Source: a virus. Taken from it: 49,325 nucleotides of DNA. Positions 3,695-45,754 of this stretch are shown one piece after another. The DNA lies in the IMG/VR virus record IMGVR_UViG_3300046472_000159, positions 1-49,325 of that record, one strand, 5' to 3'. The notes beneath the pieces were generated by a model that was given only the letters and a program-made list of their open reading frames with translations, was not told the DNA's origin and did no database searches. Made by a program: the position numbers and the translations under genes. Each line of letters starts with the position of its first letter. Positions within the stretch are counted from its first letter, which is position 1.

Positions 3695-3943
3695 TCATTC
3701 GGGCCACCAGGCGATTACCCACGGCTCGCTGACATCGTCGACGAGGACCAGGACGCGGTCGCCGAGGCTGGGCAGCGTCGCCCCGCGCGGCATCCAGTAG
3801 CGGATCTGGAATACGTGGTCCTCGCCGAAGCTCGGGATCGCGACCGTCATCGGTTCGGTGCTGGAGCCAGGCGCACTCTTGACGAAGCCATGCTCGGCCG
3901 ACGGCGGGATCGGGGTCGACGGGCGACTGAGGGAGGCGGGCAT
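3695..3943 (-). CDS. Small OB-fold-like baseplate protein (gpV/gp5 OB relative)
   Basis: This 82-residue protein lies between the tail hub and the gp25-like wedge, where gpV or spike-type OB-fold proteins are found. Its second half, FQIRYWMPRGATLPSLGDRV followed by LVLVDDVSEPWVIAWWP, reads like the beta strands of an OB barrel. The first 30 residues are Pro/Ser-rich and probably disordered. Its ATG shares one base with the end of the hub gene. A role as a central hub or spike component is inferred from position and fold. Confidence 0.6.
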   Translation of the reverse strand: MPASLSRPSTPIPPSAEHGFVKSAPGSSTEPMTVAIPSFGEDHVFQIRYWMPRGATLPSLGDRVLVLVDDVSEPWVIAWWPE

Positions 3944-5847
3944 CAGGTGCCTTTCGGGTGCCGGGCGACGAATCCCGTCTTAGGGTGCGACCCGGCCGCC
4001 AGGAACCCGGCGCGCGAGCCGAGGACCCCGCCCTCTTCCCACTCCCGCCAGCCCGACTTCGTTTTGATTTCGCAGAAAACGTGTTCGGCGTTCGCGTAGA
4101 GGACGAACCAGTCGCCGCGCCCGGCCTCAAACATGCTCATCATCGCCGGGCTGGCGGCCGGGGCATTGAGGAAGCCGCCCGCATGCAGGACCAGGCTCAT
4201 CGCGCCCGAGCAGTCGAGCTTCGGCGGGCTGGTTTCAAAGGTCGAGCCGTGGCCCGCGCCGTAGAGGTACGGGGTGCCGGTCAGCTTTTCCATCTCGGCG
4301 AGCATCGCGTCGATCGCGGCCGGGGCGCCGGACGGGGTCTGCGAAGAGTTGCCGGTCGAGCCGCTGAAGCCGCCGATCGACTTGGTCGAGGTCTGCGCGG
4401 CAGGCTCCAGCAGCGGCACGGTCGGCCGGTTGAGCGTGATCTTGCAGAGCGAGTTGCGGCGGGCCAGCGGCGCTTCGATCTTCTCGACGATGTAGATGCC
4501 GTCGCCGGGACCGTGGTCGAGGACGTTGACGACCGACCCGGGCGGCGCCTCCCATGCCGTCGCGCGCGCTTCGACGGTGATTTCCTGGACTTCCTTGCCC
4601 TCGTCGTATTTCAACTGCGTGTCCTGGACGCCCGGGGCGTAGTCGCGAATCGTCATGCGGAGCGTCGATCGCAGCAGGTCCGGCTCGGCGATGAAGTAGA
4701 TCCAGCCCGCCGACTCAAAGCAGCGCCAGTGGACTTCTTCGGCGAGGTCGACCATCTCGGTCCAGTTGTCCTTGTCGGCGGCCTGCTGGAAGGCGTATCG
4801 CTCGGTCGTTTCGACGGTTTCCGAGGCCGACCCGCCGTAGGCTTCGACCCATTCGACGGCTTCGGCTTCGACCGCGCCGTAGTTGTCGCGCCCGTTGGAG
4901 GCTTCCCCGGCACCCGACGCCTGCACGGCCTGCGCGATTTCGTAGGGCTTCGCCGTCGGGTTGGCCTTGAAGTATCCGATCGCCCCGCCCGCCTGCGAGG
5001 TCCAGCCCTTGCCGGTCAGGAATCCCGTTATGTCGTGCTGGACCCCCTTCGCTTTGCCTGCGGTCCCCTGCAAGATGTTCGACGAGGCGCGGCCCATTTC
5101 CGACTCGGCGATCAGAGCGGCGAAGAGGGCGACCATGACCCGAAACGGTGCGTTCTCAGACTCGGCGATCTTGCCCGCTTCGTTGCCGAGGGTGACCTGC
5201 GCGCTGGTCGCGGCGCTGCCCTTGACCTTCAGGTGCAGGTTGTGTTTCGACACGCCTTTTTCGCGACGTTCTTCGGCGTCGAGGATCACTTCCTTCGCCT
5301 GCTTCGGGGATTCGATCTTCTCGATCGTGTGAAGCTGCGGGCAGACGAAGGTCGGCTGCGGGGTGACCATGAAGGCGAGGCGCTTGGCGAACTCGGCGCG
5401 GGTCATCAGGTCGCGGAATGCCTTGTGTGGGCCGAGGATTTCGCGCAGCTTGGCGACGACCAGCGGTTCGTAGGTGAACTCGTCGGGGCCGTTCATCGAC
5501 GGCGAGTTGACGGCGACGAAGCGGAAGGCGAGGCCGTCGAGGTTGACGACATGTTTTTCGAGCATCAGCGGCGACTTGAGCAGCGCCCGCTTGTCGCCGA
5601 TCGTCAGTTTCAGGACGCTGGCGCCTTTCGTCGTGCGGGTCAGGGTGCCGTTGAGCAGCGAGTCGCCGAGCGCCGCCTTCCAGTTGAAGCCGCGCACGAA
5701 GAGGTCATTCAGGTCCGAGGAGATCCCGCGCACTCGGCGCAGCGGTGCGATCGCCGTCGCCGCCCCGCCGTCGGGCTGCCCCTTCTGCTCGCCGCCGTCG
5801 GCCCCCGGCTTCGTCGGGTTGGAGAGGTAGGTCAGGCCCGGCGTCAT
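3943..5847 (-). CDS. Tail hub/tail-associated lysin with two peptidoglycan hydrolase domains
   Basis: This 634-residue protein combines a gpD-like hub with cell wall hydrolases. Residues about 40-135 look like the start of the hub fold. Residues about 235-340 resemble the transglycosylase domain of actinophage tail lysins (ALIAESEMGRASSN, with Glu248 or Glu250 as candidate catalytic acid, then IGYFKANP, PYEIAQAVQASGAG and AEAVEWVEAYG). Residues 345-475 return to the hub. Residues about 505-634 are NlpC/P60-like: YLYGAGH, DCSGAM with Cys546 and EHVFCEI with His589. Two enzymes cutting glycan and peptide bonds would help the tail tube through a thick wall. Confidence 0.85.
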   Translation of the reverse strand: MTPGLTYLSNPTKPGADGGEQKGQPDGGAATAIAPLRRVRGISSDLNDLFVRGFNWKAALGDSLLNGTLTRTTKGASVLKLTIGDKRALLKSPLMLEKHVVNLDGLAFRFVAVNSPSMNGPDEFTYEPLVVAKLREILGPHKAFRDLMTRAEFAKRLAFMVTPQPTFVCPQLHTIEKIESPKQAKEVILDAEERREKGVSKHNLHLKVKGSAATSAQVTLGNEAGKIAESENAPFRVMVALFAALIAESEMGRASSNILQGTAGKAKGVQHDITGFLTGKGWTSQAGGAIGYFKANPTAKPYEIAQAVQASGAGEASNGRDNYGAVEAEAVEWVEAYGGSASETVETTERYAFQQAADKDNWTEMVDLAEEVHWRCFESAGWIYFIAEPDLLRSTLRMTIRDYAPGVQDTQLKYDEGKEVQEITVEARATAWEAPPGSVVNVLDHGPGDGIYIVEKIEAPLARRNSLCKITLNRPTVPLLEPAAQTSTKSIGGFSGSTGNSSQTPSGAPAAIDAMLAEMEKLTGTPYLYGAGHGSTFETSPPKLDCSGAMSLVLHAGGFLNAPAASPAMMSMFEAGRGDWFVLYANAEHVFCEIKTKSGWREWEEGGVLGSRAGFLAAGSHPKTGFVARHPKGT

Positions 5848-11428: not shown

Positions 11429-11460
11429 GAAAGCTACCGGGGGCTTTTGCCCCCCCTGCC
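11429..11460 (-). promoter_or_regulatory. Candidate late control element before the sheath gene
   Basis: On the minus strand GGCAGGGGGGGCAAAA is followed after 5 bases by CGGTAGCTTTC and then by the sheath ATG. The same arrangement with the same 5-base gap occurs at 20584-20616 before the scaffold start. TAGCTT fits a TANNNT -10 box, but there is no normal -35, so an activated promoter is possible. At this copy GGGGGC-AAAA-GCCCCC also forms a hairpin, so a terminator or mRNA-stabilising role is an alternative. Confidence 0.5.
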
Positions 11461-19982: not shown

Positions 19983-20579
19983 TTAGACGGCCTCCTGTCG
20001 GGCGGCGGTGGGGAACCAGTCGGCGATGACGGCCTCGGCCGACAACTGGGCGGCGCCCGAGGCCGAGATCGAGTGACCTTCCTCGGTGACCGGCACCAGG
20101 CCCTCGGGAAGCAAGTCGAGTTCGGCCTCGGCCTCGGCCGGGGTCGCGATCAGCTTGCGCTCCCATGCGGCTTTGCTGGCCGGGAGGATCTTGCCGACGC
20201 CCAGCGCGGCCGAGAGGACGGCCTCGCGATGGTCCTCGATCTGTTTGGTCCGGGCCTCGCGGCCAAGTTTGCCGTCGGCCTGGAGCGAAGCGAGAACCTC
20301 GCGGTCGACCGTGACGGTGGGTGAAGGTGCGGCGCTCGCGGCCGGTGCGTCGGCGGGCGGCGTATCGGCGGGTTTGTCCTCGCCGTCGCCGGTGTCCTCG
20401 CCATCCTCGCCGTCGCCATCCTCGGCGGGCGTGTCGGCGGGCGGCGTGGCGGGCGGATCACCCTCGGGAGTCTCGGCCTCGACAGCGATGTCCTGGGCTG
20501 CGAGTGCGGCGGCGATCTGCTCGTCGGTCGCCTCGTCGGGAAGCTCTGCCAGGGCCGCGCGAAGGGAAGAAACTTTCAT
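19983..20579 (-). CDS. Nested scaffold protein (internal start in the protease gene)
   Basis: A 198-residue product would start at the in-frame ATG at 20579 (MKVSSLRAALAELPDEATDE). It has an N-terminal helix pair, an acidic Asp/Glu/Pro linker, and a helical C-terminus (DREVLASLQADGKLGREART, then SKAAWERKLIATPAEAEAEL). This is the arrangement of lambda C/Nu3, where scaffold is made from inside the protease gene. A late-type element ends five bases upstream of this ATG, so a separate mRNA is also possible. Confidence 0.6.
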   Translation of the reverse strand: MKVSSLRAALAELPDEATDEQIAAALAAQDIAVEAETPEGDPPATPPADTPAEDGDGEDGEDTGDGEDKPADTPPADAPAASAAPSPTVTVDREVLASLQADGKLGREARTKQIEDHREAVLSAALGVGKILPASKAAWERKLIATPAEAEAELDLLPEGLVPVTEEGHSISASGAAQLSAEAVIADWFPTAARQEAV

Positions 20580-21581
20580 GGCCGAAACGCTACCGACCGA
20601 TTTTGCCCCCCCTGCCGCGACGCCTTTTTTGCGGTCGCCGAGCGGCGTGTCGGCTCGGCTGGCGAAGATGCGATCGGGGTTGGACGCGACCGGAATCCCC
20701 GACATGGCGGCGGCGGCGCGGACGGCCTGCGAGGCAGCGGCAGGCTCGGGCGCGTCGATGAAGGTCTGGAGTTTGCGCTGCGGTTCGCCGAAGGTGACTT
20801 CCTGGTTGTCGTCGGCGTAGACCTGGACGCTCCAGAGGTTGCCCTCGTCGTCGTCGGCGATGATCGTCGCTTCCTCGGCCCAGAGCGATCGCGGCCACCA
20901 CCAGTAACGCTCCCCGTCGCAGAAGTCCGAGCAGAAGGACTCGACCAGTTTGTCGATGTCGGCGGCGGCCTCGGCGGGCGGTTTCACATTCCCAATGCTG
21001 GCAGCTACCGGCTGCCCCCCTTCCGGCGCCGCCCCGGCGACGACCACGCCCTCGCCCGTCGTGAGGAACTGCTGGAGGTCGTCGAGATCCTGCACGGCGG
21101 GCCGCGAGATGCCGAGCAGCGCGACGGCGGTCAGGACGAAGCTGTATTTCTTGCCGCCCGGCGTTTCAACGTCCCAGGTGCCGATCGCCTCGCCGAGCGG
21201 ACCTTCTTCGGTCATGTAGGCGCCCTCGACCGAGCGCGAGGGGTAGGCCGACGGGGCGACCTCGGCCAGCCAGGCCGGGACGTAGGTGTAATCGCCGATC
21301 AGCGTCGCGTCGTCGTTGATGAGGCGCAGATTGTGGACCGAGCCGACGGCAGGCTCGCCGTCGTAGAACGGGTTGAACTGCTCGGCCATGACCTCCTCGG
21401 GGTTGAGCCGGGGATCGGAGTGGCCGAGCTTCAGGCGGGGGGCGACGATGTGCGGGTCGTCGTTGGCGGCGACCATCGCGTCGTGCAGGTGTTCAAAGGT
21501 GAAGGTGATCGAGCCGTTCGCCGACGGCCATTTCATGCCGACGCTCATAAGCTCGACATCGCGAATCGTGACGAGGTCCAT
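19983..21581 (-). CDS. Prohead protease with fused C-terminal scaffold region
   Basis: This protein has 532 residues. The first half resembles Mu gpI-type prohead proteases: LKLGHSDPRLNPEEVMAEQF, PSRSVEGAYMTEEGPLGEAI, and YSFVLTAVALLGISRPAVQD. The middle is long, and the last 200 residues are acidic, Pro/Asp-rich and helical, typical of scaffold. An internal ATG at 20579 probably also produces the scaffold alone. The ATG at 21581 is chosen because it begins the conserved region; only a TTG start lies further upstream. The enzyme would trim scaffold and capsid during head maturation. A serine or cysteine mechanism cannot be decided by eye. Confidence 0.8.
   Translation of the reverse strand: MDLVTIRDVELMSVGMKWPSANGSITFTFEHLHDAMVAANDDPHIVAPRLKLGHSDPRLNPEEVMAEQFNPFYDGEPAVGSVHNLRLINDDATLIGDYTYVPAWLAEVAPSAYPSRSVEGAYMTEEGPLGEAIGTWDVETPGGKKYSFVLTAVALLGISRPAVQDLDDLQQFLTTGEGVVVAGAAPEGGQPVAASIGNVKPPAEAAADIDKLVESFCSDFCDGERYWWWPRSLWAEEATIIADDDEGNLWSVQVYADDNQEVTFGEPQRKLQTFIDAPEPAAASQAVRAAAAMSGIPVASNPDRIFASRADTPLGDRKKGVAAGGAKSVGSVSAMKVSSLRAALAELPDEATDEQIAAALAAQDIAVEAETPEGDPPATPPADTPAEDGDGEDGEDTGDGEDKPADTPPADAPAASAAPSPTVTVDREVLASLQADGKLGREARTKQIEDHREAVLSAALGVGKILPASKAAWERKLIATPAEAEAELDLLPEGLVPVTEEGHSISASGAAQLSAEAVIADWFPTAARQEAV
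20584..20616 (-). promoter_or_regulatory. Second copy of the candidate late element, before the internal scaffold start
   Basis: Minus strand GGCAGGGGGGGCAAAA, 5 bases, CGGTAGCGTTTC, then the scaffold ATG. It matches the element before the sheath gene, although here it lies inside protease coding sequence, so the match cannot be due to a shared intergenic terminator. There is no hairpin in this copy. TAGCGT fits a TANNNT -10 box. A weaker relative lies at about 21002-21022. Confidence 0.5.
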
Positions 21582-24768: not shown

Positions 24769-24797
24769 AACGTACCGCCCGGGTTGTCCGCTGTCAA
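24769..24797 (-). promoter_or_regulatory. Promoter between tRNA-Lys and the small-protein operon
   Basis: TTGACA (24792-24797), 17 bases, TACGTT (24769-24774). The -35 begins one base after the 3' end of the tRNA gene. The spacer starts GCGGACAACC, so it keeps only the first half of the shared box. It drives genes 24736-23129. Confidence 0.8.
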
Positions 24798-24798
24798 G

Positions 24799-24871
24799 TG
24801 CGCGCGGCGGGGATCGAACCCGCGACCCTCTGCTTAAAAGGCAGACGCTCTACCGATTGAGCTACACGCGC
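24799..24871 (-). tRNA. tRNA-Lys (anticodon UUU)
   Basis: A 73-base cloverleaf on the minus strand with all arms paired: acceptor GCGCGTG with CGCGCGC (one G-U pair), D-stem GCTC/GAGC, anticodon stem TCTGC/GCAGA with loop CTTTTAA, variable GGGTC, T-stem GCGGG/CCCGC with TTCGATC, discriminator A. CCA is not encoded. It lies 10 bases after the stop of a small gene and is probably cut from that operon transcript. It reads AAA and AAG; AAA is rare in GC-rich hosts. Confidence 0.95.
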
Positions 24872-30265: not shown

Positions 30266-31159
30266 TCAGACGGCTCGGTAGGCAAGCTCCCCGCCTGACT
30301 TCACGGTTCTGACTTCGCCGTCGACGTAGAGGCTGCCGAGCGCCTGCATGACCTCATCGTAGTCGGCGAGCAGCTTCGTCGCGATCTCCTGCGGTTTCAG
30401 CGGCCCGAGCGCCAGCGTCGCGAGGATGCGGCCCTGGAGGGTGCCGATCTCGCGCTCGTCGTCGGTCGGCAGCGGCGGCGAGGCGACCTCTTCGCCCTGT
30501 GCATGGCCGGTGATCCCGTACCGCGTCCCGGCTCGCAGGCCCGTTTTCTCGATCCGGCCGTCGGCGAGCAGGATCGCCAGGCGGCTGCGGGCCTCGTCGC
30601 TGGTCAGTTTGAACTTGCGCGCGATCTCGCCGGTGCGGACCGTGCCGCCCTGGGCCGCGATGAAGGCGTAGATCGCCTCGGCAGTCTCGGCGATCAGGGC
30701 GCGCACCGGCGCCACTTGCCCGGTCCGGTAGCGGGTCCAGCGTCCCTCGCCTTCGCGGACGATGTGCCCGGCGTCCTCCAGCCTCTTCGCCGTGTGGTTG
30801 ACCTGCGTCGCCGTCAGGCCGGTTTCCTCGGCGACAACCATCGGCGCCAACGGCTCGCCCGCGTCGGCGATCACCTTGAACACGGCGTCGTCATGGGCCT
30901 TCTGCTGCTGCGCGCGGTCGGTGCCGGGGCCAGGCGACCCGCGACCGTTCGACGCGGGTGCGGGCGGGGGCGCAAGCTCGGGCGACGGCTCGGGGACCGG
31001 GGCGTTGCCGTTGAGCGAGGCGCTCACCGACTCGGCGGCGGCATCCAGGGCGTCAAGCTCGCGTTCGCACTGGGCGACCTCCTGCTCGGCGCTCTGCCGG
31101 GCCTCGACCAGGCGCTCACGCTCGGCGTCGATGGCAGCGATGACCGGGTGAGCATCCAC
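30266..31159 (-). CDS. Coiled-coil protein with three tandem winged-helix domains
   Basis: This protein has 297 residues. Residues about 1-48 form a coiled coil (AERERLVEARQSAEQEVAQC). A Pro/Ala linker follows. Three winged helices occupy about 90-150 (VVAEETGLTATQVNHTAKRL), 160-220 (GEIARKFKLTSDEARSRLAI) and 240-297 (PQEIATKLLADYDEVMQALG). The third begins GTLQGRIL, as does the last domain of the protein at 44540-45178, which shares this layout. GTG start. It lies directly after terminase, so a DNA-packaging or regulatory role is possible. Confidence 0.8.
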   Translation of the reverse strand: MDAHPVIAAIDAERERLVEARQSAEQEVAQCERELDALDAAAESVSASLNGNAPVPEPSPELAPPPAPASNGRGSPGPGTDRAQQQKAHDDAVFKVIADAGEPLAPMVVAEETGLTATQVNHTAKRLEDAGHIVREGEGRWTRYRTGQVAPVRALIAETAEAIYAFIAAQGGTVRTGEIARKFKLTSDEARSRLAILLADGRIEKTGLRAGTRYGITGHAQGEEVASPPLPTDDEREIGTLQGRILATLALGPLKPQEIATKLLADYDEVMQALGSLYVDGEVRTVKSGGELAYRAV

Positions 31160-42403: not shown

Positions 42404-42656
42404 CAACGACCTCGATCTCGCTGCACTTCCAGACATAGGGGCCGCTCGGCCCTTCGCGCCGGTAGTTGCGGGCATGAGTGCTGAATGTCTCGGGCGGGTC
42501 GATGCCCGGCCACGCGACGACGACGCGAGGGTTGCCGCCTTCGTCGTCCTCTTCGATCGTCACGACTTCGCCGACGGTGCGGCCGTCGCCCCCGTCGATC
42601 TGGGCGCCCTGCTCGATCGGCTTGTTCTCGGCGTCGATGATCTCTAGCTCGGGCAT
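42396..42656 (-). CDS. Hypothetical 86-residue beta-rich protein
   Basis: GDGRTVGEVVTIEEDDEGGN and PRVVVAWPGIDPPETFSTHA, then YVWKCSEIEVVDG, read like an SH3- or KOW-like barrel. It overlaps the upstream TopoVI-A-like gene by TGATG. Function is unknown. Confidence 0.65.
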   Translation of the reverse strand: MPELEIIDAENKPIEQGAQIDGGDGRTVGEVVTIEEDDEGGNPRVVVAWPGIDPPETFSTHARNYRREGPSGPYVWKCSEIEVVDG

Positions 42657-43588
42657 CAGTCCTCCCTTCCGTCGATCAGCCGCTCCAACTCCTCGACGAT
42701 CGCGGCTCGCTCGATTTCAGACTCGGCCTCGACCTCGCGAAGCTGGTCCATGTCGGTCCATTCCTCACACGCCTGCTCGACCATAGTTTTCAGCAGGGGC
42801 GGGTCAATCGCCTCGGCCTGGGCAGTCTGGAAGCGCCCCTCATCTTCCCAGCGTTTTGAGCGCCCATCGGACTTCTTCGGGGGCGCCGTGTCGATTTCAT
42901 ACTCGTCGACTTGGTCGAGGGTCAGGGCCACGCGCTCGGCGCGGAAGAGATCCTCATAGTCGGAGATCAGGCCGCCGCCAGAACGGCCGACGTAGAAGGC
43001 CGAGGCATCTTCAAGGATCGCCGTGAAGATCGACTCGCCCGAGGGGTCGTAATCGCCAATGTGCAGCAGGACGGTCGCGTCGTCCTCGGCGAGCGCACGG
43101 CGCGCGATGTCGTGCGTCGCCGTGACCGAGAGGAAGCCTCCCGCGCTGAACACCGGGACACCGTAGGGTCGCGCCATTTTCGCCACCATTTCGGCCATGC
43201 CGCCAGCCTCGACCCATAGCTCGATCCGGTGGTCCTGACCCTCGCGGGTCGGTCTGCCGTAATACTGCCCGTCGTTCCTGACCGCCCGCCAGAACTGAGC
43301 GGGATCGTCGTAGCCGCTGCCCGCTGCATGTTCGGAGACTTTGTCGTCGCGGATCGCTGAGAACGGGATCATCTCGGCCCGCCGTGCGCGGACCAGCTTC
43401 TCGCAGAGGTTCTCGTAATCGCGCTCGGTCTTGGGGTACCCATAGCTGCCGACGAGCCGGTAGAAAACCTGCCTCGCCGTCATCGCGCCATAGGATCGGT
43501 ATTCGTCGAGGATCGCCCGCACTTGGTCGATCAGGATGAGTGTCTCTGGCTTCGGGTTCCAGTCGGCGTATCCGCGCGGGCGGGCCAT
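42656..43588 (-). CDS. Spo11/TopoVI-A-like TOPRIM protein (Mini-A type)
   Basis: This protein has 310 residues. The N-terminal winged-helix part has MTARQVFYRLVGSYGYPKTE; Tyr43 is in the position of the catalytic Tyr of the 5Y-CAP domain. RRAEMIPFSAIRDD follows. The TOPRIM domain has ELWVEAGG (Glu127), VFSAGGFLSVTATHDIA, and LLHIGDYDPSG (Asp179, Asp181). This is the organisation of TopoVI A and Spo11, and of the short Mini-A relatives of bacteria and mobile elements. No TopoVI-B-like partner was seen. It may cut DNA for recombination or relieve tangles. Confidence 0.8.
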   Translation of the reverse strand: MARPRGYADWNPKPETLILIDQVRAILDEYRSYGAMTARQVFYRLVGSYGYPKTERDYENLCEKLVRARRAEMIPFSAIRDDKVSEHAAGSGYDDPAQFWRAVRNDGQYYGRPTREGQDHRIELWVEAGGMAEMVAKMARPYGVPVFSAGGFLSVTATHDIARRALAEDDATVLLHIGDYDPSGESIFTAILEDASAFYVGRSGGGLISDYEDLFRAERVALTLDQVDEYEIDTAPPKKSDGRSKRWEDEGRFQTAQAEAIDPPLLKTMVEQACEEWTDMDQLREVEAESEIERAAIVEELERLIDGRED

Positions 43589-44508
43589 CAGGACGCCTCC
43601 TGCGTGAAGGTCACCGTCACATCGCCGGGCGCGTCGACCGGCCCGAGGATCGCTTCGACGCCCGCCTGTACCTCGTCGGCCCGAATCCCGCCGAAGTACC
43701 GGTTGCAGGCGCCCTTCGGCGGCAGGTCGTTGGCGGTCCGGTCGATGTCGGCCCGGCCCGGCCAGTACCCCTCGCGGCGGCGAAACGACAGCACTGACTC
43801 GGCGCTATCGACCGGCCCCCATTTCTTCTTCCGCGCCGTGTAATACGGGACCATCCCGGCTTCCAGAAGGAAGGCGTTGAAGTCGCCGAACTCTCGGTAT
43901 ATCTGCGACGAGGGCGGCAGGCCGTGGCCCTTCCCCTTCCCGCACTCTTCGACGCGGGGCGGGCGACCGTGCTGGTCGCGGAACCGCTGGGCCGCGCCGA
44001 GCATCTGCAAGCGTTCCCACTTGACCCGGTAACCGCCCTTCGGCGGCGGCGTGTACTTCGCATCCTCGTCGACGTTCGGCAGCGCCGCAGGCAGGACCGG
44101 TTTGGCACCGGTCAGGGCAGCGTCACCAGCCATCTCAGCGAGGCCGTCGATCGAGTCGACCCGTTCGCGGCGACCGAGCTTGATGATCCAGTGACACGAC
44201 GCTTTGTAGAGGAGGCCCATCCACGACTCCGGGGGCATCGTGAACAGATAACGCCTGCCCTCATAGACCTCCAGCAGCGCCTCCTGCACCGCTTCTTCGA
44301 TGTCGTCGTGCATACCCCGGCCCATGTAGCGGACCCCCAGCATGTAGCGGATTCGGGCTATGTGGCGCGGGTAGTCGAAGGCGACCAGCGTCGCCGCGAT
44401 CTCGTCGTCGGGCGCCGGGTGCGCGGGTGCCTCTATGTCGTATCCGACCGCTAGGTCGAACTCGGGACCTTCGATCTCTGCGAAGGCGGCGGTGAAGGTG
44501 TCAGCCAT
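43588..44508 (-). CDS. Sigma-factor region-2-like protein with C-terminal homing-endonuclease-type DNA-binding repeats
   Basis: This protein has 306 residues. Residues about 48-125 resemble region 2 of ECF-type sigma factors: DDIEEAVQEALLEVYE (68-83), ESWMGLLYKASCHWIIKLGR (94-113), RERVDSIDGLA. No region 4 HTH follows. Instead about 163-220 (RLQMLGAAQRFRDQHGRPPR, LPPSSQIYREFGDFNAFLLE) and 236-290 (VLSFRRREGYWPGRADIDRT) look like two repeats of the homing-endonuclease-associated DNA-binding type. It could bind core RNA polymerase and direct it to phage promoters. GAAAGG with TATCCCACT lies upstream. Confidence 0.65.
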   Translation of the reverse strand: MADTFTAAFAEIEGPEFDLAVGYDIEAPAHPAPDDEIAATLVAFDYPRHIARIRYMLGVRYMGRGMHDDIEEAVQEALLEVYEGRRYLFTMPPESWMGLLYKASCHWIIKLGRRERVDSIDGLAEMAGDAALTGAKPVLPAALPNVDEDAKYTPPPKGGYRVKWERLQMLGAAQRFRDQHGRPPRVEECGKGKGHGLPPSSQIYREFGDFNAFLLEAGMVPYYTARKKKWGPVDSAESVLSFRRREGYWPGRADIDRTANDLPPKGACNRYFGGIRADEVQAGVEAILGPVDAPGDVTVTFTQEAS

Positions 44509-44539: not shown

Positions 44540-45178
44540 CTACGGGGCGACGATGTACCCCGGTTGGCCTTCGCGGCGCTCCATTCGGATCTCTTCCTCG
44601 CGGATCAGCAGACCCGTAGCACGGCGCAGATCCGCCTCGCTGGCACCGGTGGATTCAAGCAGCGAAGCGTGACTCACGAACCCACCGGCCTGCACCTTGC
44701 TCAGGACGCGACCCTGCAAGGTGCCGTCATCGGGGCCAGGCGCCTTGCCGACCGCAGCGGCGGCTCGCTCAGCCAGTGGCGCGCCAGAACCGACCGCTCC
44801 GTACTCGGTCGTTTGGCGGGAACCGCGACGGCGCACTTTGCCTTCCTCTTCGAGCCGCTTGACGGCGGTACGCATCGGCTCCTTGCTGATTCCAACCGCC
44901 TCGCGGATCTCACGCGACGGGACCATGCCGCCCCGCTCGACCAGGAAGGCCAGTACCGCCTCGCGGCGCTTGGCGGCCTCTACGTGCGAGGTCGTGTTGC
45001 GTGTGCGCTTCGGCGGCGCCTTGCGGGCCGCAGGGGGTGTCGCGGCCTTCGGCTTGCCTAGAGCGGCGGCGGCGCGGTCGAGCCGCGTCATCTCCGCGTC
45101 GGCCCAGGAACGGATGCGCTCGCGCTGGTCGTCGATCGCGGCGAGGATCGCCGTCGTGGCGTCGGGTGCCTCGGGCAT
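44540..45178 (-). CDS. Coiled-coil protein with two tandem winged-helix domains
   Basis: This 212-residue protein has an N-terminal helix (LAAIDDQRERIRSWADAEMT), a basic Pro/Ala linker, then winged helices at about 65-125 (SREIREAVGISKEPMRTAVK) and 150-212 (GTLQGRVLSKVQAGGFVSHA, ASEADLRRATGLLIREEEIR). It shares layout and the GTLQGR junction with the triple winged-helix protein at 30266-31159, so the two are probably related. It may be a promoter or DNA-packaging regulator. It is 31 bases upstream of the sigma-like gene. Confidence 0.8.
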   Translation of the reverse strand: MPEAPDATTAILAAIDDQRERIRSWADAEMTRLDRAAAALGKPKAATPPAARKAPPKRTRNTTSHVEAAKRREAVLAFLVERGGMVPSREIREAVGISKEPMRTAVKRLEEEGKVRRRGSRQTTEYGAVGSGAPLAERAAAAVGKAPGPDDGTLQGRVLSKVQAGGFVSHASLLESTGASEADLRRATGLLIREEEIRMERREGQPGYIVAP

Positions 45179-45689: not shown

Positions 45690-45725
45690 GTCGGAACCTC
45701 CTGAGTCGGTGGATAGCATGCCCCT

Positions 45726-45754
45726 AAGCTAACGGCTCCCTAGTCCGCTGTCAA
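45726..45754 (-). promoter_or_regulatory. Early-type promoter with shared box
   Basis: TTGACA (45749-45754), a 17-base spacer starting GCGGACTAGG, TAGCTT (45726-45731), six bases, ATGCTATCCACC, AGGAGG. It drives the operon 45689-44540 and possibly genes beyond, including the sigma-like gene. Confidence 0.85.

Follow-up and report, generated by a model that had tools for sequence, protein, structure and literature searches.

Background

In sigma factors of the ECF type, the acidic motif of region 2.2 contacts the polymerase, and EcfP, which is without this motif, is intrinsically inactive (PMC8999054). For SigH, another ECF factor, the linker between sigma2 and sigma4 is essential and reaches into the cleft of the active site (PMC6411747). 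In sigma-I, sigma2 is joined to an unrelated C-terminal domain with an HTH; this domain recognises the -35 element and binds the beta flap as well (PMC10575876). Phage phiEco32 encodes a sigma factor, gp36, without a recognisable region 4, whose promoters have no -35 element (PMC8948821).

We analysed a stretch of viral DNA of 49,325 nucleotides (IMG/VR record IMGVR_UViG_3300046472_000159; "the window" denotes this whole stretch). It belongs to a contractile-tailed phage, in which portal, terminase, tail sheath, tape measure and head protease were recognised; the portal's nearest named relatives are actinobacterial phages, Arthrobacter first. Nearly all genes run leftwards, and in the right-hand, upstream part lies a gene whose 306-aa product, judged by sequence comparison, joins an ECF-type sigma region 2 to two HNH_repeat domains, without a detectable region 4. 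The gene probably, though by no means certainly, encodes an alternative sigma factor of unusual build, with the repeats in place of region 4, that serves an early-to-late switch. It adjoins a topoisomerase-like gene and lies near RecT-like and exonuclease-like genes. The topoisomerase-like protein (42656-43588, minus strand) matches phrog_6247 with E 2.7e-41 and has distant relatives in 68 phage records from many hosts.

Layout of the gene and its product

The features of the gene, all on the minus strand, are as follows.

43588-44508, minus strand: sigma2-HNH_repeat gene, ORF of 306 aa, with Pfam matches to HNH_repeat and, weakly, Sigma70_r2; homologues in four actinobacterial genomes
44131-44376, minus strand: sigma region 2-like domain, about residues 45-126 (NCBIfam, Sigma70_r2 matches of the family, hhalign)
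44281-44304, minus strand: DIEEAVQE, residues 69-76, corresponding in alignments to the region 2.2 motif 'DAED..QE' of ECF factors
44023-44130, minus strand: linker from sigma2 to the repeats, residues 127-162 (family alignment)
43843-44022, minus strand: HNH_repeat 1, residues 163-222 (PF18780, E 8e-7), kept in all homologues
43645-43827, minus strand: HNH_repeat 2, a degenerate copy at residues 228-288 (recognised by hhalign comparison with repeat 1)

The ORF lies exactly where an earlier reading of the DNA, made from its letters alone (the sequence-only reading), had placed it, and its codon-position GC of 0.69/0.47/0.85 has coding-type periodicity. The two segments which that reading had quoted as sigma-like correspond to residues 68-83 and 94-113.

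Homologues in actinobacterial genomes

Homologues were found in four actinobacterial genomes, at 28-45% identity and with the repeats kept in all. A survey of 396 actinobacterial genomes gave one true homologue, G351 (39% identity, E 1e-54); a class-level search gave the second, G583 (47% identity and 4e-67 in that search), and an order-level profile search the third, G676 (8e-69), and a divergent fourth, G649, which is matched over its full length once the profile includes it. The architecture is thus rare among the genomes sampled, whereas proteins with repeats only occur in many others. Chromosomal proteins of about 240 aa that consist mostly of HNH repeats are widespread in the host class (L081, L083 and similar loci).

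Searches of phage, plasmid and viral-contig collections with tblastn and profiles found no relative, a result that counts against the sigma-factor explanation. Likewise, tblastn of the protein against genome contigs found none, and neither a hand-made degenerate repeat alignment nor two family alignments found anything among viral contigs. Weak tblastn matches in Gordonia, Edwardsiella and Synechococcus phages look like chance. A DNA scan for two motifs (QE[AT], then FG..AG) gave 1 viral and 31 genome matches, none with the layout of sigma2 followed by repeats; the sole clear HNH_repeat match among them, L034 from Akkermansia, has its QEAL inside a repeat.

Sigma region 2 is recognised across the family

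The first three family members, the window protein included, all match both Sigma70_r2 (best 6e-5) and HNH_repeat, and G649 lies above both Pfam curated cut-offs (Sigma70_r2 7e-7, HNH_repeat 2e-14; 29.4 and 54.4 bits). Several NCBIfam sigma factor models were matched by family members (best 1.5e-4), and for the window protein by itself an NCBIfam sigma factor model covered residues 30-129 (E 8e-4). When the PDB was searched with a three-member profile, only chains of the ECF factor SigE matched, over region 2 and with E ~0.05 (best 0.047). In shuffle controls, 0 of 2000 shuffles of each family member reached that member's sigma2 score.

Comparison of the family's N-terminal part with 21 ECF sigma2 sequences by hhalign gave a probability of 97.5-97.9%, eight of the 21 having been chosen for their likeness to the family. 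Because of that choice, we repeated the sigma2 test with 13 unselected ECF factors. The resulting profile found G649 (1e-5) and G351 (3e-5) and ranked the window ORF first among the 512 ORFs of the window, yet at E 0.09. By itself, then, the window protein is a marginal sigma2 match, its Pfam match to Sigma70_r2 (residues 59-86, E 0.15) also being below the cut-off, and this counts against the sigma-factor explanation; the assignment, made by sequence comparison, is drawn from the family rather than from the window protein on its own. Also counted against it was the structure prediction: single-sequence AlphaFold gave no usable model (pLDDT 33 for the whole protein, 45 for residues 36-132), and Foldseek on residues 36-132 was uninformative.

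All members retain the acidic motif of region 2.2, which is DIEE in the phage protein and DAED or HAED in those of the hosts. The counterparts of DIEEAVQE in the aligned homologues are DAEDAIQD, HAEDAAHD, DAEDAIQE and DAEDAVQE.

Region 4 is absent and two repeats follow the linker

Neither Pfam nor NCBIfam gave a region 4 match at E<=10 in the window protein or in the family members searched. A sigma4 profile built from the same 13 ECF factors found 9 of 9 other ECF factors, at 22 to 78 bits, and gave the sigma2-HNH_repeat family at most 0.2 bits. Beyond the sigma2 domain, Pfam instead places HNH_repeat (PF18780) at residues 168-219 of the window protein, above the cut-off (E 8e-7). The second repeat is under the Pfam threshold, and hhalign of repeat 1 against repeat 2 gave 93%, compared with 0.3% for a reversed control; both repeats are conserved across the homologues. 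These results uphold the sequence-only reading on three counts: a sigma region 2, now recognised at the family level by Pfam, NCBIfam and hhalign; the absence of region 4, for which both the domain libraries and a working sigma4 profile gave no match; and two HNH-type repeats in its stead, the first from Pfam and the second from hhalign. Profile searches, on whose outcome that reading had let its region 2 claim depend, were run and found sigma2 matches.

Four of the five members have an acidic patch in the linker (NVDEDAKY, GEPDAKF, ADGEAKY, AEEEALR). By analogy, the linker may act as that of SigH does.

HNH_repeat is a domain named from homing endonucleases. In the literature searched, a single paper mentioned PF18780, and it did so only in listing a repeat family that had been modelled; no paper used the words 'homing endonuclease associated repeat' or joined HNH_repeat with sigma factors, and with most subscription papers outside the search this absence is no proof. 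The origin of the name and the weak sigma2 score of the window protein itself would suit a decayed relative of homing endonucleases whose N-terminus resembles sigma2 by chance. We regard this as highly improbable: domain searches found a catalytic nuclease domain in no family member, and the sigma2 matches of the family reach E 7e-7, with the shuffle controls above speaking against chance.

A winged-helix partner and the genomic setting

Directly upstream of the sigma2-HNH_repeat gene lies a second gene.

44540-45178, minus strand: winged-helix protein gene (HTH_24, E 1.1e-5), with homologues upstream in G351, G583 and G676

This gene precedes the sigma2-HNH_repeat gene in the phage and in three of the four hosts (G351, G583 and G676), and the two genes therefore form a module. 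In the three hosts, a one-base overlap joins start and stop, and in the window the genes are 31 bases apart. A second winged-helix gene of the window, at 30266-31159 (minus strand), is related to that at 44540-45178 and lies downstream of the large terminase gene.

G351 and G583 share a conserved non-coding stretch ahead of the gene pair (L090 6090-6372 and L094 10946-11200, both on the minus strand), in which the blocks AATGATCGCCGAsGTT, AAGAAGTT and TACCTCGATGTArCGT are identically spaced. When searched for, the last of these was perfect only at the G351 and G583 gene-pair loci, and it did not recur in the window above chance. With three mismatches, AATGATCGCCGAsGTT has 6 matches in the window, as against 0.8 in shuffles, scattered over both strands.

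At the host sites of G351, G583 and G676 no other window gene was found, with the exception of the C-terminal domain of ORF 3943-5847, at a distance of some 7 kb in G583 and about 37 kb in G351. Of this ORF (minus strand), the last 130 to 180 residues match host contigs L092, L094 and L119 with E 3e-12 to 3e-17; these contigs also bear the sigma2-HNH_repeat gene, about 37, 7 and 14 kb from the match.

Neighbours of the host genes are AbiE genes in G351, an integrase, a Phd-type antitoxin and a SIR2-type gene in G583, an AbiEii-like gene in G676 and an integrase in G649. Because homologues occur in the chromosomes of actinobacteria, close to integrase or defence genes, the protein is not purely a phage invention. 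The proposal of a new kind of phage specificity factor in the sequence-only reading held for the build of the protein, with sigma2, repeats and no region 4, and needs correction on two points: the family is not confined to phages, and its design has precedents in principle in sigma-I and phiEco32 gp36.

This setting bears on another explanation, in which the protein is a regulator or mobile-element protein that has kept a sigma2 fold without a sigma role, only the HNH repeats mattering for DNA binding. Integrases and AbiE or SIR2-type genes near the host homologues would be in keeping with it, as would the common occurrence in the same bacterial class of repeat-only proteins without sigma2 and the standing of HNH_repeat as the sole domain above the Pfam cut-off in the window protein. 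Against this, G649, which is above the Sigma70_r2 cut-off, has the same layout, and the acidic polymerase-contact motif is kept in all members, which leaves the explanation quite unlikely in our view.

TTGACA-type promoters

Promoter-like sites with an extended core were found across the window.

45726-45754, minus strand: early-type promoter TTGACAGCGGACTAGGGAGCCGTTAGCTT (pattern search), upstream of a run of genes that begins at 45719 and to which 43588-44508 belongs
1124-, 23125-, 24797-, 27568+, 34804-, 41716- and 45754- (position and strand): TTGACA-type promoter sites, extended core TTGACA(g/c)CGGaCTAG

The site at 45754-45726 (minus strand) reads TTGACAGCGGACTAG...TTAGCTT and belongs to a set of related sites: when up to three mismatches are allowed, TTGACAGCGGACTAG has at least seven matches in the window, as against 0.7 expected. 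Several are followed by a TANNNT-type -10, and five (1124, 23125, 27568, 41716 and 45754) have a CTATCC-type leader ahead of the ribosome-binding site. A consensus promoter scan found nothing near the sigma2-HNH_repeat gene, because the -10 there is TANNNT-like and not TATAAT-like. The statement of the sequence-only reading that the gene lies downstream of an early-type promoter is confirmed by the 45754-45726 site, and this upstream TTGACA-type promoter fits a gene of the early or middle class. A tRNA-Lys gene at 24798-24871 (minus strand) is followed directly by a TTGACA-type phage promoter (stretch 24783-24871).

By its sequence, the conserved spacer core of these promoters looks like a protein-binding site, and a phage regulator could read it in at least seven TTGACA-type promoters. 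This would accord with a protein that recruits or appropriates the polymerase while bound to DNA: its sigma2-like part would dock on the polymerase or on a sigma-bound complex, its repeats would bind an operator, and promoters of the host sigma factor (e.g. those with the TTGACAGCGGACTAG core) would be activated or repressed. The winged-helix partner encoded next door and the failure to detect a sigma4-like part also favour such a recruiter. However, the acidic motif of region 2.2 and the pattern of regions 2.3/2.4 have been kept through deep divergence, as fits clamp binding and the reading or melting of a -10 element, and we consider recruitment unlikely.

A G-rich element as candidate target

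Distinct from these promoters is a G-rich element, GGCAGGGGGGGCAAAA-N6-GGTAGC, of which the window has two copies free of mismatches, its only clear ones.

11433-11460, minus strand: G-rich element (GGCAGGGGGGGCAAAA-N6-GGTAGC), copy 1, immediately ahead of the start of the tail-sheath gene (11419); candidate target
20589-20616, minus strand: G-rich element, copy 2, just before the internal in-frame ATG at 20579 of the head-protease ORF; candidate target

These positions are what a late promoter would have. From the internal start of the head-protease ORF (19983-20579, minus strand), a 198-aa product rich in Ala/Asp/Glu/Pro would be made, which looks like a nested scaffold. Of 200 shuffled genomes, 9 had a comparable repeat (16 exact bases plus 6 at equal spacing up to 20) on one strand; that an element with two clear copies has its like in about 5% of shuffled genomes counts against the sigma-factor explanation. 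The link between the protein and this element is only suggestive, its sole tie being that both occur in one phage.

Proposed mechanism

The sigma-factor explanation is favoured by the sigma2 homology of the family, its kept acidic motif, the absent region 4 and the two conserved repeats, together with the conserved winged-helix pairing, the upstream TTGACA-type promoter and the precedent of sigma-I. A further point against it is that no known part would hold the beta-flap in place of sigma4.

Under this explanation, the protein would be made early in infection from a host-type TTGACA promoter, along with its winged-helix partner, which probably modulates it or its promoter. From homology, the ECF-type sigma2 domain would use its acidic DIEE/QE motif to attach to the host RNA polymerase at the beta-prime clamp, and it would read and open a -10 element. 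Going by the family name, the two HNH_repeat domains would bind DNA further upstream, replacing sigma4, and the protein would redirect the polymerase to phage promoters that are used later. The best candidate target, weakly indicated, may be the G-rich element, whose copies precede the tail-sheath start and the putative scaffold start. The two-gene module of the host chromosomes probably does the same for a mobile element. We advance more tentatively the wider proposal of a new class of sigma factors, found in the phage and at actinobacterial sites near mobile-element genes, that carries HNH_repeat for region 4, reads GGCAGGGGGGGCAAAA in the -35 region and provides a new form of late-gene control.

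Should the protein work as proposed, it would be a second replacement of sigma region 4 by an unrelated DNA-binding module, apart from sigma-I, and the -35-reading half of sigma factors would be exchangeable. HNH_repeat, a widespread domain known by name only from homing endonucleases, would gain a role in transcription. The system would also provide a testable model of late-gene control for phages of poorly studied actinobacteria and a promoter-factor pair with modular upstream specificity. The swapped rear half suggests a new way to redirect the host RNA polymerase to phage genes.

Comparison with known systems

The protein has in common with ECF (group IV) factors, such as SigE and SigH of Mycobacterium tuberculosis, the sigma2 domain, the DAED-type motif, the 2.3/2.4 pattern and a linker between the two halves. 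It differs from them in having the two HNH repeats and no sigma4, in the GPEFD..VGY segment which three of the five members carry at the N-terminus, and in its neighbouring partner, which is a winged-helix protein rather than a membrane anti-sigma factor.

HNH homing endonucleases share the HNH_repeat and differ in their catalytic nuclease domain, which is absent here, and the repeat-only proteins of about 240 aa in the host class share the repeats (PF18780) and are without sigma2. Phage phiEco32 gp36 is likewise phage-encoded, sigma2-like and without region 4, but HNH repeats are not reported for it, and no profile match between the two was seen in PHROGs, where the window protein had no match and single family members came no closer to phage sigma PHROGs than E 0.1-0.35.

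Sigma-I (SigI of Bacilli and Clostridia) also combines sigma2 with a DNA-reading C-terminus unrelated to sigma4, and has no sigma4 (PMC10575876). Its C-terminal family differs from the HNH_repeat found here, no RsgI-type anti-sigma partner was seen, and the setting here is a phage and the vicinity of mobile-element genes. The SigIC C-terminal domain is absent, no SigI model being among the Pfam or NCBIfam matches at E<=10, and no sequence relation beyond sigma2 was found. Sigma-I is thus a precedent in design and the closest working analogue, not a relative. Since the phage protein should by homology work like a sigma factor, is without the region 4 that marks ECF factors and is not a sigma-I, we would class it as a novel variant within the sigma70 family.
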